From: Planctomycetota bacterium
GTDB taxonomy: Bacteria > Planctomycetota > Phycisphaerae > WQYP01
NCBI GenBank assembly: GCA_021799715.1
Contig: JAJYZY010000105.1
Span: 1 to 8,550 of the forward strand
Reading direction: 5' to 3'
DNA: 8,550 bases
Program-made: the position numbers and the translations under genes
The notes under the pieces: generated by a model
Told to the model about the DNA's origin: nothing
The model's input: the letters and a program-made list of their open reading frames with translations, nothing else
Database searches by the model: none
In this document: positions 561 through 8,531 of the stretch, one piece after another
How positions within the stretch are numbered: position 1 is the first letter of the stretch
Layout: each line of letters begins with the position of its first letter

Positions 561-3500
561 TTAGCGCGGCTCAAGCCCATGGCCGGGTTTATTGATAAAC
601 AGAATGTAATAGGTCACCGGAATCACAAAGAGTGTAAACACCGTCGATGCCAGAAGTCCAAAAATCAGCGACCAGGCCAGACCGGAAAAAATCGGATCGG
701 ACAAAATTGGAATCGAAGACAACATGGCGGCGGCGGCGGTCAACAAAATGGGCCGCATGCGCACGACCACACTCTCCAGAATCGCATCATAAAGCGATTG
801 CCCGTTGGCCAGAGATCGATGAATAAAGTCTATGAGGATAATGGCATTGCGGGTCACGATGCCAGCCAGGGCGATCATGCCGATCATGGCGGTGGCGGTG
901 AAAAATACCAGATCGCGATATCCTCCAACATCATGCGCGGTCAGCAGATTCAGCACCCAGAAACCGGGCATCACGCCCGGAATGGTCAGCGGTATGGCCA
1001 GCATGATAATCAGCGGCAGAAGAAACGATCCGGTCTGGGCAATCAACAGAACGTAAATGCCGATCATGGCGGCACCAAAGGCCAGACCCAAGTCCCGAAA
1101 TACATTAATCGTGATTCGCCATTCACCTTCTCCGGCAAAATTTACGTGCAGACCCGGCGGCAGTTGCCAGGCAATTCCCGATCCATCGTGAAAGAAGGAA
1201 CGATCCGCCAGGGGCCGGGCTTTTACTTCGTGTATCCAGCCGCTGCCGACATGCGTCATGCCCGCAATTCGCGGCACCACACCATCAGGCAGGCGATCCG
1301 CTTCGGTATCAAGAATCGCATTGACCGGCGGGCGTCCCGCCGTATCCGCATAAACATAAACAATACGCCGGAGATCTTTATGATAAATCGCTTCACCCGC
1401 CCATTGGCTCTTCCAATGCCCCAATTCCGCCAGCGGTACCAGCACACCGTTGGAGCCGCGGACAAATACCCTGGTTAAATCGGCGCAACTGGACCGCCGC
1501 GATCTTGGCAGGCGCAGTATGATGTTGAGTTCCCGGCGCTGGCGCGGGGCGTGAATAACCCCGGCAATTTTTCCGCCCAGAGCCATGGCCAGCGTTTGAG
1601 AAATTTCTCCGGTGGTAACGCCGTTTAATGCGGCCTTGCGTTTATCCGTGATAAACACCATCTGTTTCTGCGGTGCCTGCACGCTGTCATCCACATCCAC
1701 CACATCCGGCTCCAGCATCAGACGATGGCGCAAGGTGCGCGCGGCCAATTGCATCTGATGGTAGCTTGTCGTCGGTGAGCCGTGAATTTCACCCACAATG
1801 GTATCCAGCACCGGCGGGCCGGGTGGCGCTTCAACAATGGCAATGCGCACGCCGAATTTGCGGGCGATGGCGGTGAGGCTGTTGCGGATACGCAGGGCAA
1901 TTTCATGCGTTTGCATCGCCCGCTGCTGTTTGCCGGCCAGATCAATGGCGATCTGTGCGTCGTTGGGCTGATTGCGGATAAAATAGTGCCGCACCAGGCC
2001 GTTAAAGTCCATTGGAGCGGCAATACCCACATAACTGGTGATATCCACAACCTCATGCAGGCGGTCAAGGCGCTGCACCAGGGCGCGCGTCGCGGCATCG
2101 GTATTTTGCACGGTTGTGCCGCGCGGCGCGTGCACAACAATTAAGAGATTGCTCTGATCGCTGAAAGGCAGCATTTTCAGCGGCACCAGCCGCAGCGCGG
2201 GCAGAGCCACCGCCGCCACGGTGATCCCGGCAACAGCCAGAAGAAATCCCCATCGGGCCGGACGGTATTTCAACATGGACCCCAGCAGAATTGAAAAAAC
2301 TTTGTAGCGCCGCGTGTGTTGGATAACAGAAACCACGTGCGGATCAGCGACTTCTTCGCGCGCTTCGAGTTGCGTTTCGCGGTGCTTATTTTTCAACATG
2401 TGATACGCCATCCACGGCGTGATCGTAAACGCCACGAGCATGGACATTAGCATCGCCACAGGCACGTTAAACGCCATGGGTCGCATATACGGCCCCATCA
2501 TGCCCGTAATAAAAAACATGGGGATAAACGACAGAATCACCGCCAGCGTGGCGACAATCAGCGGTCCGAGCACCTCGGAAATGGCTTTCAGGGCAATCAG
2601 TCGCGTGGCCTTCCCTTCCAGCGCAAAATGCCGGCTGATGTTTTCCACATCCACAATCGGGTCATCCACCAGCAGGCCCAGTGACAGAATCAGCGCAAAG
2701 AGCGTCACGCGGTTAATGGTAAAGCCGAGCATCAGATTACACGCCAGTGTCAGCCCGAATACCACGGGAATGGCCACCGCCACCACAATAGATTCGCGCC
2801 ATCCCAACCCGATGGTCAAGAGAATAATCACAATGACAATCGCCACCAGCAATCCTTCGACAAGACTGTTGACCTTGGAATTGGCTGATAGACCGCTGTT
2901 GCGCGTCACAATCATGTTTATGTCCGATGGAAGCATCACACCCGCGAGTTTCCGGGCGTGGGCAATGACATCGGCCGCCACCGTTACCGCATTGCTGCCG
3001 GCTTTTTTCGCAATCGCCACTGTTACCGCGGGGGTTGCGGCATGCACGCTGCGCACCGGATTTCCCGCCAATACCGTGCCCGGAAAATCACGCGATTCAT
3101 GCACATCCGCGGCGGGACCCCATTTATGCCAGACGTAAGAATCAACTTCCGCCGGGCCATCGACGATTCGCGCGACATTGCTTAAATAAACCGGCTGCTG
3201 ATGCCATACGGACACCACCAGCCGCCCAAGTTGCCGGGCATTGGCCAGGGCTGTCCCGGCCAGAACACGAATTTCTTTATTATTGCGCTGATAACTTCCC
3301 GCCGACATGGTGACATCCGCCGCCTGAATATCGCGGTCAATTTCCAGCGGCGTAATGTTGTAGGCGTGCATTTTCGACGCACTGAGATACGCATACACGA
3401 CGCGCGGGCGGCCACCGATGACATAGGCCCGCGATACGTTGGGAACGGCGGCAAGCCGGGCGGAGAGTTCTTCCGCGGTCTGCCGCAGGGCCACAGCTGT

Positions 3501-3986
3501 GGCGGTTTTGCTGGTTAAGGTCAGGGTGACAATCGGAACATCATTGATGGTTTCCGGTTTGATGACCCAGCCGGTGACACCGGCCGGCACTCGGTTGAGA
3601 TGCTGCTTTATTTTCCGAAACACCTTCACCACGCTGCGTTCCACGTCCTGCCCGACATAAAATCGGGCCGTCACCATGGATTGATCGCGCTGGCTGGTGG
3701 AATAGACATACTCCACGCCATGAATCTGATACAGCAGTTTTTCCAACGGCGTGGTAACAAGTTGTTCTACGCTTTTCGCGCTATGGCCGGGATAGGCCAC
3801 GTAAATATCCACCATGGGGACGATAATTTGCGGGTCTTTTTCACGCGGTGTAATCAGCAGCGATGCGGCTCCCAACAACACGGCCAGCAGAATCAGAACC
3901 AGGGACAGCCGCGAATACAGAAATATCTTGACCACGCGCTCAATGAGGCTTAGCTCGCCGGCGCGGGCTTCCGTTGGGTTGCTCAT
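561..3986 (-). CDS. RND-family efflux transporter permease (AcrB/CusA superfamily)
   Basis: This is the proton-driven inner-membrane pump of a tripartite efflux system, 1141 residues, somewhat longer than AcrB. The N-terminus has one membrane helix (about 20-42), then a porter domain opening with PREKDPQIIVPMVDIYVAYPG, typical of the RND subgroup usually annotated as acriflavin resistance or cation efflux. Helices 2-6 follow from about 378. LGLLVDDPIVDVEN in helix 4 carries the paired proton-relay aspartates D441 and D442. The second porter/docking half includes FNGLVRHYFIRNQ and VEAPPGPPVLDT, also characteristic of this group. Helices 8-12 lie at about 965-1130. Helix 10 has TRNAIILIDF with Arg1046 where AcrB has Lys940. 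The ATG overlaps the adaptor stop (ATGA), with GGAG a few bases upstream, so the two are translationally coupled. The substrate (drug, metal or other) cannot be read from sequence. No outer-membrane factor gene is nearby. Confidence 0.95.
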   Translation of the reverse strand: MSNPTEARAGELSLIERVVKIFLYSRLSLVLILLAVLLGAASLLITPREKDPQIIVPMVDIYVAYPGHSAKSVEQLVTTPLEKLLYQIHGVEYVYSTSQRDQSMVTARFYVGQDVERSVVKVFRKIKQHLNRVPAGVTGWVIKPETINDVPIVTLTLTSKTATAVALRQTAEELSARLAAVPNVSRAYVIGGRPRVVYAYLSASKMHAYNITPLEIDRDIQAADVTMSAGSYQRNNKEIRVLAGTALANARQLGRLVVSVWHQQPVYLSNVARIVDGPAEVDSYVWHKWGPAADVHESRDFPGTVLAGNPVRSVHAATPAVTVAIAKKAGSNAVTVAADVIAHARKLAGVMLPSDINMIVTRNSGLSANSKVNSLVEGLLVAIVIVIILLTIGLGWRESIVVAVAIPVVFGLTLACNLMLGFTINRVTLFALILSLGLLVDDPIVDVENISRHFALEGKATRLIALKAISEVLGPLIVATLAVILSFIPMFFITGMMGPYMRPMAFNVPVAMLMSMLVAFTITPWMAYHMLKNKHRETQLEAREEVADPHVVSVIQHTRRYKVFSILLGSMLKYRPARWGFLLAVAGITVAAVALPALRLVPLKMLPFSDQSNLLIVVHAPRGTTVQNTDAATRALVQRLDRLHEVVDITSYVGIAAPMDFNGLVRHYFIRNQPNDAQIAIDLAGKQQRAMQTHEIALRIRNSLTAIARKFGVRIAIVEAPPGPPVLDTIVGEIHGSPTTSYHQMQLAARTLRHRLMLEPDVVDVDDSVQAPQKQMVFITDKRKAALNGVTTGEISQTLAMALGGKIAGVIHAPRQRRELNIILRLPRSRRSSCADLTRVFVRGSNGVLVPLAELGHWKSQWAGEAIYHKDLRRIVYVYADTAGRPPVNAILDTEADRLPDGVVPRIAGMTHVGSGWIHEVKARPLADRSFFHDGSGIAWQLPPGLHVNFAGEGEWRITINVFRDLGLAFGAAMIGIYVLLIAQTGSFLLPLIIMLAIPLTIPGVMPGFWVLNLLTAHDVGGYRDLVFFTATAMIGMIALAGIVTRNAIILIDFIHRSLANGQSLYDAILESVVVRMRPILLTAAAAMLSSIPILSDPIFSGLAWSLIFGLLASTVFTLFVIPVTYYILFINKPGHGLEPR

Positions 3987-5137
3987 GGCCGAATCTCCGC
4001 GGCAGCGCGAATCTTATTGTGCGATTCGGCGTTTGACTGATGATCTTCTCCGGAAACAACCACCACGCGCTGTCCGGCCGCCACGCCGGAAAGAATTTCA
4101 CGCATCTTGCCAAAATGCCGTCCCGGTTGCACCGTTTGACGCAACAATTGTCCATGCACAATAAGTTTCACAATATCCAGTTGGCCGACATGTTCAATGG
4201 CCGCCTCCGGCACCACCAGCACCCGGTGCGAACCGGTGGGAATGATTAAATTACCGTACATGCCCGGCCACACGCCGGATGGAAATCTTGCCGTGGCTTT
4301 CACAATAAAGCTCCGGCTTTGCGCATCTACCCGCGGCACAATCTGCCGGATTCGCGCCACGACCGTTTGCCGCAACCCTTCCAGCCGCACCGGCATTTTT
4401 TGCCCCAGGTGCAGAATCGAAGCCAGTGATTCCCTTACTACCGCCGCCAGTTGGAGCTTGCGCGGATCATAAAGCTTGGCCAGCATCTGACCCGGCATAA
4501 CGGTGTCTCCCACATTGACATATTTCCGCATGACAATGCCATTGATTGTCGAACGAATCGTGGCATAGCCAAGTACCGCTTGCGCCGCCTGCCTTTCCGC
4601 CACGGCGCGCGCCACATTTGCCTGATCGGACGCCACCGCGGTATTGGCAAGATCCATGGCGGCTGTTGTGACATCACCGGTAACCAGCAGCTTCTTATCC
4701 CGCATCTGATCAATAACCGCCTGGCGCAACTGCGCTCTGGCCAGCAGCACCGCGGCCGCGGCCTGTGCGAATTGCGCTTTGATTTGCGCGGTATTCAGCC
4801 GCACCAGGACCTGACCTTTCTTTACGCTTGCCCCGGCAATGAGACGGCTATACACAATGCGCCCGACAATGCGCGGCGACAACAACACCGGCGCAATCGC
4901 TCTGATTGTACCCACGGCTCGGAGGTTGTCGGAAATTACCATGTACCGCGCAGTAGCGGCGGCACCAGTGAACGGCGGCGCGGCGGCCACAGGCACTGAT
5001 CCAGGTTTAATTTTGGCTTTCAGGGCACCGGTGCTCCATGCCATCAGTGCCACGACCAGCAGTACAGCCAGAAGCAATCCCGCAATGCGCCCGGAAATAA
5101 GGGCAATATTTTTCAATTGGAGCCGGCGCTTGGCCAT
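3983..5137 (-). CDS. RND efflux periplasmic adaptor (membrane fusion protein, HlyD/AcrA-like)
   Basis: This 384-residue adaptor would link the RND pump to an outer-membrane channel. A basic N-terminus and one hydrophobic helix (about 11-34, no lipobox cysteine) anchor it in the inner membrane. The first biotinyl-lipoyl half is near residues 86-115 (SPRIVGRIVYSRLIAGASVKKGQVLVRLN region). An Ala/Gln-rich helical hairpin runs about 116-188. The second lipoyl half is ATIRSTINGIVMRK...VGDTVMPGQMLAKL (192-222). A beta-barrel (about 228-300, with the WPGMYGNLIIP segment) and a membrane-proximal domain (to about 362) follow. GGGAG lies about 9 bases upstream of ATG 5137. The gene starts 56 bases after the DUF2892 gene and ends inside the RND start codon, so the order DUF2892-adaptor-pump is one operon by spacing. 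The C-terminal tail (after about 363) is polar and probably disordered. Confidence 0.93.
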   Translation of the reverse strand: MAKRRLQLKNIALISGRIAGLLLAVLLVVALMAWSTGALKAKIKPGSVPVAAAPPFTGAAATARYMVISDNLRAVGTIRAIAPVLLSPRIVGRIVYSRLIAGASVKKGQVLVRLNTAQIKAQFAQAAAAVLLARAQLRQAVIDQMRDKKLLVTGDVTTAAMDLANTAVASDQANVARAVAERQAAQAVLGYATIRSTINGIVMRKYVNVGDTVMPGQMLAKLYDPRKLQLAAVVRESLASILHLGQKMPVRLEGLRQTVVARIRQIVPRVDAQSRSFIVKATARFPSGVWPGMYGNLIIPTGSHRVLVVPEAAIEHVGQLDIVKLIVHGQLLRQTVQPGRHFGKMREILSGVAAGQRVVVVSGEDHQSNAESHNKIRAAAEIRP

Positions 5138-5193: not shown

Positions 5194-5394
5194 TTACGCC
5201 TGATGCGTTTGCTTAAGTCCACATTGTCCCAGAATTTTCTCGGCGGGGCAAAATCCGGTAAACGCGGATTGAATAAGATTCAATCCAACAAAGCCCGCCA
5301 GGATCAACCACCACTGATTCACCCATACCGCTAACGCCACGCTGATAAGTACCATCGCACCAGCCACCACGCGTACACCACGTTCAACGTTCAT
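5194..5394 (-). CDS. Small DUF2892 / YgaP-like transmembrane protein
   Basis: A 66-residue protein with the DUF2892 signature: MNVERGVRVVAG at the start, two hydrophobic helices (about 8-25 and 29-47) and a C-terminal FTGFCPAEKILGQCGLKQ with two cysteines. The family is the membrane segment found attached to rhodanese in YgaP, and as stand-alone small proteins near sulfur, arsenic or thiol genes. Its own biochemical role is not established. An upstream in-frame TTG at 5406 would add four residues, but it overlaps the GAGGTG ribosome site at 5399-5404, which is correctly spaced for ATG 5394, so I chose the ATG. It is the first gene of the efflux operon, behind a structured leader. The conserved FCP cysteine suggests, by inference only, a link with thiol or persulfide chemistry. 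Confidence 0.88.
   Translation of the reverse strand: MNVERGVRVVAGAMVLISVALAVWVNQWWLILAGFVGLNLIQSAFTGFCPAEKILGQCGLKQTHQA
5208..5221. repeat. Left arm of a perfect 14-bp inverted repeat (partner 5477-5490)
   Basis: TTTGCTTAAGTCCA on the plus strand, inside the last codons of the DUF2892 gene (Cys-Gly-Leu-Lys-Gln). It is the exact reverse complement of TGGACTTAAGCAAA at 5477-5490 in the operon leader. The two arms enclose about 255 bases that include nearly all of the DUF2892 gene. Confidence 0.75.
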
Positions 5395-5398
5395 GGAA

Positions 5399-5404
5399 CA
5401 CCTC
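5399..5404 (-). promoter_or_regulatory. Ribosome binding site of the DUF2892 gene
   Basis: On the minus strand TTTTTTGAGGTGTTCC precedes the ATG at 5394. GAGG lies six bases before the start codon. This fixes the start at 5394 rather than the in-frame TTG at 5406. The stop codon of a possible 24-codon upstream reading frame (TGA, 5405-5403) overlaps this site. Confidence 0.7.
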
Positions 5405-5423
5405 AAAAAACTCTCGGCACATC

Positions 5424-5462
5424 AAAAAAACCGTTGCCGCATGGCCGCGAACATGAGGCAAC
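5424..5462 (-). terminator. Intrinsic terminator inside the operon leader (attenuator candidate)
   Basis: On the minus strand GTTGCC (5462-5457) pairs perfectly with GGCAAC (5438-5433). A T/C mismatch follows, then CATG (5455-5452) pairs with CATG (5443-5440) around an 8-base loop. The stem is followed by GG and seven T (5430-5424). No other gene lies between the promoter at 5685-5713 and this site, and it ends 29 bases before the DUF2892 start codon. It must therefore either attenuate the operon or end a short RNA. Confidence 0.65.
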
Positions 5463-5476
5463 CAGCCAAGCCCCCA

Positions 5477-5490
5477 TGGACTTAAGCAAA
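5477..5490. repeat. Right arm of a perfect 14-bp inverted repeat (partner 5208-5221)
   Basis: TGGACTTAAGCAAA on the plus strand, within the untranslated leader of the efflux operon and just upstream (in minus-strand sense) of the leader terminator. In the operon mRNA this segment could pair with the 3' end of the DUF2892 coding sequence. Confidence 0.75.
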
Positions 5491-5581
5491 ATTATCGCCG
5501 CCGGTTTGGCACAGCCGCCCGGTGGAGACCAGCGGTCGGCCGGCTGGTGCGACAATGAAACAGTCACAATCCACAAACTCT

Positions 5582-5600
5582 ATGTTATGGACAATAACAT
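5582..5600. repeat. Perfect 7-bp inverted repeat, operator-like or RNA hairpin
   Basis: ATGTTAT-GGACA-ATAACAT is a 19-base perfect dyad about 80 bases downstream of the predicted transcription start. It could be a protein-binding operator in DNA or a small hairpin in the leader RNA. The position downstream of the promoter and the short loop allow both. No regulator gene is present in the window. Confidence 0.5.
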
Positions 5601-5684
5601 TTCATCCGGCGTGTACGCATCGCAATGATTCCTCGCAATCAGGAACGATGCAATTGCGGGCACACCTGCCACACTATTTATATT

Positions 5685-5713
5685 CTTATATTCTTATTTA
5701 GTGATAAAGTCAA
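5685..5713 (-). promoter_or_regulatory. Sigma70-type promoter of the efflux operon leader
   Basis: On the minus strand TTGACT (5713-5708) matches the -35 consensus in five of six bases. After exactly 17 bases, TATAAG (5690-5685) matches the -10 consensus in five of six. The spacer and surrounding DNA are very AT-rich compared with the rest of the window and include a tandem TATTCTTA pair (5681-5696, plus strand). Transcription would start near 5678 and run left. It lies directly downstream of the terminator at 5732-5764, so it begins a new unit. Confidence 0.7.
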
Positions 5714-5731: not shown

Positions 5732-5764
5732 AAAAAAAGTCCCACAGGGTTTGGCCTGCGGGAC
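5732..5764 (-). terminator. Strong intrinsic terminator after the secreted-protein gene
   Basis: On the minus strand GTCCCGCAGG (5764-5755) pairs with CCTGTGGGAC (5748-5739) over 10 bp including one G-U pair. The loop is six bases, and seven T (5738-5732) follow immediately. It closes the unit containing the gene at 5895-6383. The 130 bases between that gene's stop and this hairpin hold no convincing gene. They include a small dyad GCGGTA-CA-TACCGC at 5846-5859. On the plus strand the stem has an A-C mismatch and a less tight T5 run, so it may act weakly in that direction too. Confidence 0.85.
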
Positions 5765-6396: not shown

Positions 6397-6540
6397 GTGT
6401 ATCTGGAAAACGTTGGAACCGGGCCATCGGACCATCCGATTTAACCACCAGTCGTTTCCTACATGGCTGCCAAACGCACCGCGCGCGAAAAAGTTACAGA
6501 TGACATGGAAAATCGATGCGCTAACGTAATCCCCGGAATA

Positions 6541-8440: not shown

Positions 8441-8531
8441 GGAGAGATGGCCGAGCGGCTGAAGGCGCCGGTTTGCTAAACCGGTGTACGGGTTACAACC
8501 TGTACCGCGGGTTCGAATCCCGCTCTCTCCG
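8441..8531 (+). tRNA. tRNA-Ser (anticodon GCT)
   Basis: A complete cloverleaf with a long variable arm (class II). Acceptor GGAGAGA (8441-8447) pairs with TCTCTCC (8524-8530), with discriminator G at 8531. The D stem is GCC/GGC (8450-8452, 8464-8466). The anticodon stem CCGGT/ACCGG carries loop TTGCTAA with anticodon GCT at 8475-8477, which reads AGC and AGU serine codons. The variable stem GTACGGG/CCTGTAC (8486-8492, 8499-8505) includes one G-T pair. The T arm GCGGG-TTCGAAT-CCCGC lies at 8507-8523. The CCA end is not encoded and must be added after transcription. It is divergent from nadE. Confidence 0.97.

Follow-up and report, generated by a model that had tools for sequence, protein, structure and literature searches.

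A conserved promoter, a variable leader and a small hairpin near the ribosome-binding site upstream of a planctomycete DUF2892-adaptor-RND operon

Comparison of the region upstream of a DUF2892-adaptor-RND operon from a member of the Planctomycetota (the window, that is, the whole analyzed stretch of 8,550 nucleotides) with the corresponding regions of its relatives shows that the promoter of the operon is conserved, that the leader following it is variable, and that a small hairpin, S1, located just upstream of the ribosome-binding site (RBS), is present in three of the four usable leaders. The explanation that we prefer, with a probability of roughly 0.42, is an operon driven by its promoter, with a leader that tolerates insertions, in which the small RBS-proximal hairpin tunes the output and some termination occurs in the window. 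The riboswitch reading, put forward in a first-pass annotation of the sequence, is not supported.

Gene context and conserved promoter

The operon is located on the minus strand, where it is preceded by nadE (8220-6541, minus strand) and, second in order, by a gene for a carboxypeptidase-regulatory-like protein (6383-5895, minus strand). Between the latter and the DUF2892 gene, a terminator, a promoter, about 255 gene-free bases, and a hairpin with a run of seven U (U7) follow each other. The features are, in the order of transcription:

5739-5764, minus strand: intrinsic terminator of the carboxypeptidase-regulatory-like gene (10-pair stem and U7, from the terminator scan)
5685-5713, minus strand: sigma-70-type promoter TTGACT-N17-TATAAG (-35 at 5713-5708, -10 at 5690-5685)
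5617-5651, minus strand: hairpin about 25 bases past the promoter, seen in the minimum-energy fold, conservation unproven
5403-5576, minus strand: putative 57-aa open reading frame (ORF) with a stop that overlaps the Shine-Dalgarno (SD) sequence; the frames of relatives end in LCAEFY or LCAELF, that of the window does not
5452-5462, minus strand: 5' arm of the terminator-like stem S1; in the window, the SD is an alternative pairing partner of 5459-5454
5444-5447, minus strand: CGGC in the S1 loop, 5' arm of a possible pseudoknot stem, S2
5433-5443, minus strand: 3' arm of S1
5424-5430, minus strand: U7, found in the window only (from the sequence and the alignment of relatives)
5415-5418, minus strand: GCCG, 3' arm of the possible stem S2 (from pairing over four leaders)
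5399-5404, minus strand: SD-like GAGGTG of the first gene
5194-5394, minus strand: YgaP-like TM (DUF2892) protein, 66 aa, first gene of the operon (PF11127, E 1.3e-15)
3983-5137, minus strand: RND periplasmic adaptor, 384 aa (TIGR01730, above cut-off)
561-3986, minus strand: RND permease, 1141 aa (PF00873, E 3.7e-143)

Elsewhere in the window, Rfam identifies a tRNA gene (8441-8531, plus strand), and the palindrome ATCGGACCATCCGAT (plus-strand reading; window 6426-6440, minus strand) is located upstream of the carboxypeptidase-regulatory-like gene, inside a 17-base stretch that is identical in the window, L003, L004 and L005; it is a possible operator or RNA hairpin.

A protein search yielded 57 adaptors at E up to 1e-20, including the window's own P0001, among 7995 scored candidates, and a profile scan of genome contigs, with an alignment of the window adaptor and 21 found adaptors, yielded 17 loci, of which 16 are titled Planctomycetota, Phycisphaerae, Phycisphaerales or Phycisphaera. 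Fifteen of the other adaptors (P0002-P0016), some of which may belong to L001-L005, have identities of 71-79%. In the five close loci (L001-L005), the adaptor is 74-78% identical to that of the window. Homologs at E up to 1e-40 were detected in 20 of 28 genomes of the family, with the same five as the close ones, and 40 of 397 genomes drawn from the class gave a match at E up to 1e-60, with no orthologue above 65% identity beyond these five. No relative was found in 12 viral stretches, and the 72 plasmid records matched by the DUF2892 protein, every one below 60% identity, were left out of the comparison. The contig of L002 begins 41 bases before DUF2892, and its leader is not visible; L004 has no DUF2892 match and yet retains the promoter, adaptor and permease (L004 5800-6001). 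The comparison of promoters rests on four relatives (L001, L003, L004 and L005) and that of DUF2892 leaders on three (L001, L003 and L005) together with the window.

The near-consensus promoter described in the first-pass annotation was verified at the coordinates listed above: it matches the consensus at 10 of 12 bases, with a spacer of 17 bases, and is missing from a rule-based scan because that scan accepts only -10 hexamers ending in T. All four testable close relatives (L001, L003, L004 and L005) retain the promoter block TTGACTTTATCRYTAAATARGAATAYAAGAAT almost letter for letter. The spacer motif has one exact match each in G001, G003, G004 and G005 and is absent from G002, the contig of which ends at that place. 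A regulon sharing this motif was not found in the five genomes (19 further matches with 2-3 mismatches vs 13 for the reversed control), and no second promoter was noticed for the pump genes.

A variable leader with a hairpin at its end

The -10 hexamer and the start codon are 290 bases apart in the window, 128 in L001, 190 in L003 and 249 in L005. The leaders can be aligned at their two ends only; the middle is neither alignable nor constant in length, and blastn found no match for it in the close loci or in five close genomes. The final 30 bases before the gene align among the relatives, and the 60-70 bases before DUF2892 are 53-69% identical in pairwise comparisons, which is no better than ahead of neighboring genes. 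The pump leader of L005 contains a dispersed repeat of the TTTGAGATTTCAGA type (L005 5525-5650), which matches its own genome at 8 other places, G001 and G003 together at 3, and G004 at none. Thus, in these few close relatives, the leader is mostly an insertion-tolerant spacer, with unrelated filler of varying length.

Two statements of the first-pass annotation on the leader agree with these analyses. The approximately 255 bases after the promoter are indeed without a recognizable gene and structured, folding better than their shuffles (z -3.05, with 1 of 200 equally good), and the absence of a known riboswitch consensus is matched by the Rfam scan, which gave no leader match at the gathering score and, at E up to 5, three weak, chance-level matches (E 1.3 to 4.2). 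A conserved aptamer-like sequence or structure was not found across the leaders of the few close relatives. As far as visible, a leader-long conserved aptamer appears not to be a feature of the clade, and no ligand-binding domain is evident in the leader.

The stem of S1, GTTGCCTCATG/CATGCGGCAAC (5462-5452/5443-5433), contains one mismatch and has a computed energy of -12.7 kcal/mol. Counterparts occur at the same place in L005 (GTTGTTGGGTG/CATTTGGCAAC) and L003 (GTTGCTGTGG/CCGCATCAAC), with two-sided changes that preserve the pairing. When the downstream part was kept fixed and the upstream part was shuffled (2000 shuffles each), 12 shuffles were as good for the window, 1 for L005 and 21 for L003; S1 is absent from L001, for which 1211 of the 2000 were as good. 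By eye, L004 lacks the S1 hairpin as well as DUF2892. A looser test, which takes the best hairpin of any shape ending at that place (not in all cases S1), gave 39 (window), 1 (L003), 1 (L005) and 171 (L001) equally good shuffles of 300. Random substitution at the observed sites retained as many pairs in 2.1% of the cases from the window to L005 (5.3% with a stronger transition bias), 1.0% from the window to L003, 2.6% from L005 to L003, and 5.5% from L005 to the window. RNAalifold, unprompted, identifies most of S1, together with a weak stem between GYGCC and the SD region. Conservation of the leader stems had been named in the first-pass annotation as a check on its reading: S1 recurs in L003 and L005 but is absent from L001, and the 5' hairpin (5617-5651) was not recovered by RNAalifold on five sequences, which gave another, 5-pair stem instead.

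The S1 loop could pair with the downstream GCCG (S2) to form an H-type pseudoknot or an alternative hairpin. With G-U permitted, each of the four leaders could form the CGGC/GCCG pairing, without any two-sided change. On the alignment A4, 84.1% of 63 cells are paired for S1 and S2 together, compared with 29.8-55.6% for slid versions; over the four leaders, the values are 79.1% for S1 alone and 95% for S2. Three S1/S2 pairs show two-sided changes, and one slid version has 3 as well, so this count does not discriminate; the column shuffles of this alignment are weak, with 23 to 70 of 500 reaching the observed measures. A covariance model of the 3' element (R1), for which 150 first-look candidates were scored per genome, was run over 28 genomes of the order without a convincing second copy turning up: E values below 1e-5 were obtained at the pump locus only (in G001, G003 and G005, which are among the model's own sequences, and in G002, which is not), the rest being at 0.01 or worse. 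Similarly, among the 7 genomes searched, the pattern GCYGARTTKTWTTGAGGTG occurs at 0 mismatches at the pump locus only (G001, G002, G003 and G005). Taken together, the pairing and shuffle tests appear to give S1 moderate support in three leaders, with a clear failure in the fourth. The recurrence of the stem in L003 and L005 with pairing-preserving changes suggests that a short section of the leader probably evolves under constraint on its RNA structure; S1 is the only part that shows signs of such constraint, and the only likely functional RNA part.

Promoter control in relatives and the leader as plain spacer

An alternative, which we find somewhat doubtful, is that the operon is controlled at the promoter only, with the leader hairpins and the terminator-like element being functionless and the likeness of S1 in the relatives reflecting shared ancestry plus chance. 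This possibility is in line with the lack of leader conservation apart from the two ends and with a start-proximal block that is no better conserved than the sequence before other genes. It also draws on the more distant relatives, where an ArsR-type gene is located divergently upstream of DUF2892 in 7 of 15 such genomes of the 28-genome set (loci L031-L034 and L036-L038, six of them also numbered L008, L010, L011, L013, L014 and L015; the count was made within the sequenced flank, and the flank of L030 is too short to tell), which suggests control at the promoter. NF033788 scored above cut-off for the two ArsR-type proteins scanned. Inverted repeats are present between -35 and -10 of the promoters in ArsR-bearing loci, clear in L008 and L013 (AATATCACTAAACTGTGATATT) and imperfect in L014 and L015 (by eye), and the leaders are short in the ArsR-bearing relatives inspected. 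The promoter of the window, TTGACTTTATCACTAAATAAG, resembles, by eye, the left half of the L013 promoter, and it looks like the promoter of an ArsR locus with the right half changed.

The window shares with the ArsR/SmtB-type regulator-efflux operons of distant relatives the same DUF2892-adaptor-RND order and, by eye, a similar promoter half site; unlike those loci, its clade lacks an adjacent ArsR gene and has one recognizable half site only. An adjacent repressor gene is not apparent, partly by eye, in the window, L003, L004 and L005. The search for a close ArsR orthologue in G001-G005 was negative, with best matches 30-36% identical and weaker ones reaching up to 43% over about 70 residues, and this result, together with the pairing of S1 maintained in L003 and L005, argues against control at the promoter only.

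Two side observations pertain to this group of loci. Two ArsR-type proteins contain cysteines near the C-terminus (ICELVC and LCDLVC, respectively). In L006 and L007, a different palindrome, CTGTATGctgatatagtCATACAG, overlaps the promoter upstream of DUF2892, and no ArsR match of that kind was detected in the locus.

Termination, alternative readings and the proposed mechanism

Intrinsic-terminator attenuators and terminator-type riboswitches consist of a promoter, a leader, and a hairpin with a U-run just before the first gene of the operon. The window has all these elements in the same arrangement. Unlike the terminator-type riboswitches, it shows no conserved aptamer and no Rfam match in the leader, its U-run is not kept in the relatives, and the antiterminator is only a candidate. 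A literature search on riboswitch or intrinsic-terminator leaders of RND efflux operons surfaced only one paper, on cobalt and vitamin B12. Premature-termination control, in which the terminator formed by S1 and U7 would be opened by a ligand, a protein or the ribosome, appears unlikely.

The terminator itself is where it had been reported in the first pass: S1 (5462-5433) is followed by two unpaired G and then by U7 (5430-5424), which ends 29 bases short of the start codon (5394). That there is no gene for it to serve holds too, because the upstream carboxypeptidase-regulatory-like gene has its own strong terminator (5764-5739), which is also present, by eye, in L001, L003, L004 and L005. The absence of the terminator-like element from the rule-based terminator scan we attribute to the stem mismatch. 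By our own score, 3 of 200 dinucleotide shuffles match the best terminator in the window leader, so that its occurrence by chance is unlikely, albeit not wildly so. Once the U-run has just been made, the window leader is computed to favor S1 (pair probability 0.96 outer and 0.93 inner), the competing fold being 3.7 kcal/mol weaker at this stage; in the minimum-energy fold of the full leader, S1 is missing, and GCCTCA of its 5' arm pairs with TGAGGT at the SD. These folds, along with the good hairpin and U7 and the lack of an apparent adjacent repressor gene, are the arguments for premature-termination control, to which L005 adds that S1 ranks first among its terminator candidates.

The relatives argue against it. 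In L003, S1 is followed by TTGTTTGTG, and in L005 by CTTTCATTGTG, with no U-run in either, and no terminator stands out from the shuffles in L001, L003, L004 or L005 (31, 27, 23 and 34 of 200 as good, respectively). The lack of a conserved aptamer-like domain, of an Rfam match at the gathering score, and of a convincing second copy in 28 genomes points in the same direction. Hence the possible riboswitch of the first-pass annotation, or a conserved attenuator, is not supported: the leader is variable, the U-run is confined to the window, Rfam gives no match at the gathering score, and S1 is absent from L001. Partial termination in the window is plausible from the computed folds; a conserved termination switch is not shown.

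Quite unlikely, in our assessment, is a leader peptide, namely a short ORF ahead of the first gene that stops on the SD (TGAGGTG) and couples or attenuates expression. Frames ending on the TGA of the SD are found in L001 (MWVIGAAAICLCAEFY) and L003 (MRSVAVEIGTASTCLCAEFY) and give similar peptides; over 14 codons including the stop, third positions account for 7 of the 10 differences (P 0.02), 6 of the 9 changed codons are synonymous, and the frames of L005 and L002 (contig incomplete) end in LCAELF and GLCAEFY, respectively. Against this, the ratio over 11 codons is only 4 of 6 (P 0.1), FDVPRVF is the end of the window frame, which has no coding pattern in comparison with L003 or L005, the L005 and window alignments contain indels of lengths not divisible by three, and the start signals of the short frames are weak (partly by eye). 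A short ORF tied to efflux genes is reminiscent of the leader-peptide control by PA5471.1, which is linked to the MexXY pump (PMC13041342, PMC12057347), and of peTrpL of Sinorhizobium meliloti, a leader peptide linked to a multidrug pump (PMC7298713), as far as the available parts of these sources go; unlike these systems as described there, the window has no conserved peptide, and its ORF is putative. An N-terminal extension of the DUF2892 protein was considered separately and rejected, given that the frame before the start shifts in L003 (TTCTT vs TTCC).

Distinctly improbable, in our view, is a more elaborate scenario in which the clade lost an ancestral ArsR repressor adjacent to the pump and a small RBS-proximal H-type pseudoknot took over, acting on translation in most members and, via the added U-run, on termination in the species of the window; this would be an undescribed RNA switch, with the pump possibly responding to sulfur or metal stress, a role that is a guess. 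In the available part of a study of Azospira suillum (PMC5358917), a DUF2892 gene and an RND/SQR operon are H2S-induced, being expressed more under sulfide-oxidizing conditions, and their deletion left the sulfide oxidation rate unchanged. The window likewise combines a DUF2892 gene with RND pump genes; unlike in the window, the DUF2892 and RND/SQR genes of A. suillum are at separate loci, and that part of the study describes no leader regulation. We found no literature joining sulfide, BigR and DUF2892. Finally, a separate small RNA of about 255 bases would fit a promoter and a terminator flanking a gene-free structured stretch but is highly improbable given the unmatched leader middle in close loci and five close genomes and the lack of another visible pump promoter.

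In the preferred explanation, the pump operon would be transcribed from the conserved promoter (5713-5685), S1 just upstream of the RBS would tune the output locally, through access to the RBS or RNA stability, and S1 with U7 would end a share of the transcripts before the first gene in the window. The effects of S1 on termination or translation, like the pseudoknot, are inferred, and four usable leaders are too few to decide on the mechanism.

The comparison shrinks the candidate element from 255 bases to about 50 and illustrates that what looks, in one genome, like a leader running from promoter to terminator can consist largely of evolutionary filler. If S1 regulates, a planctomycete lineage that has received little study would control an RND pump at the RNA level, perhaps with the RNA in the place of a DNA-binding repressor.
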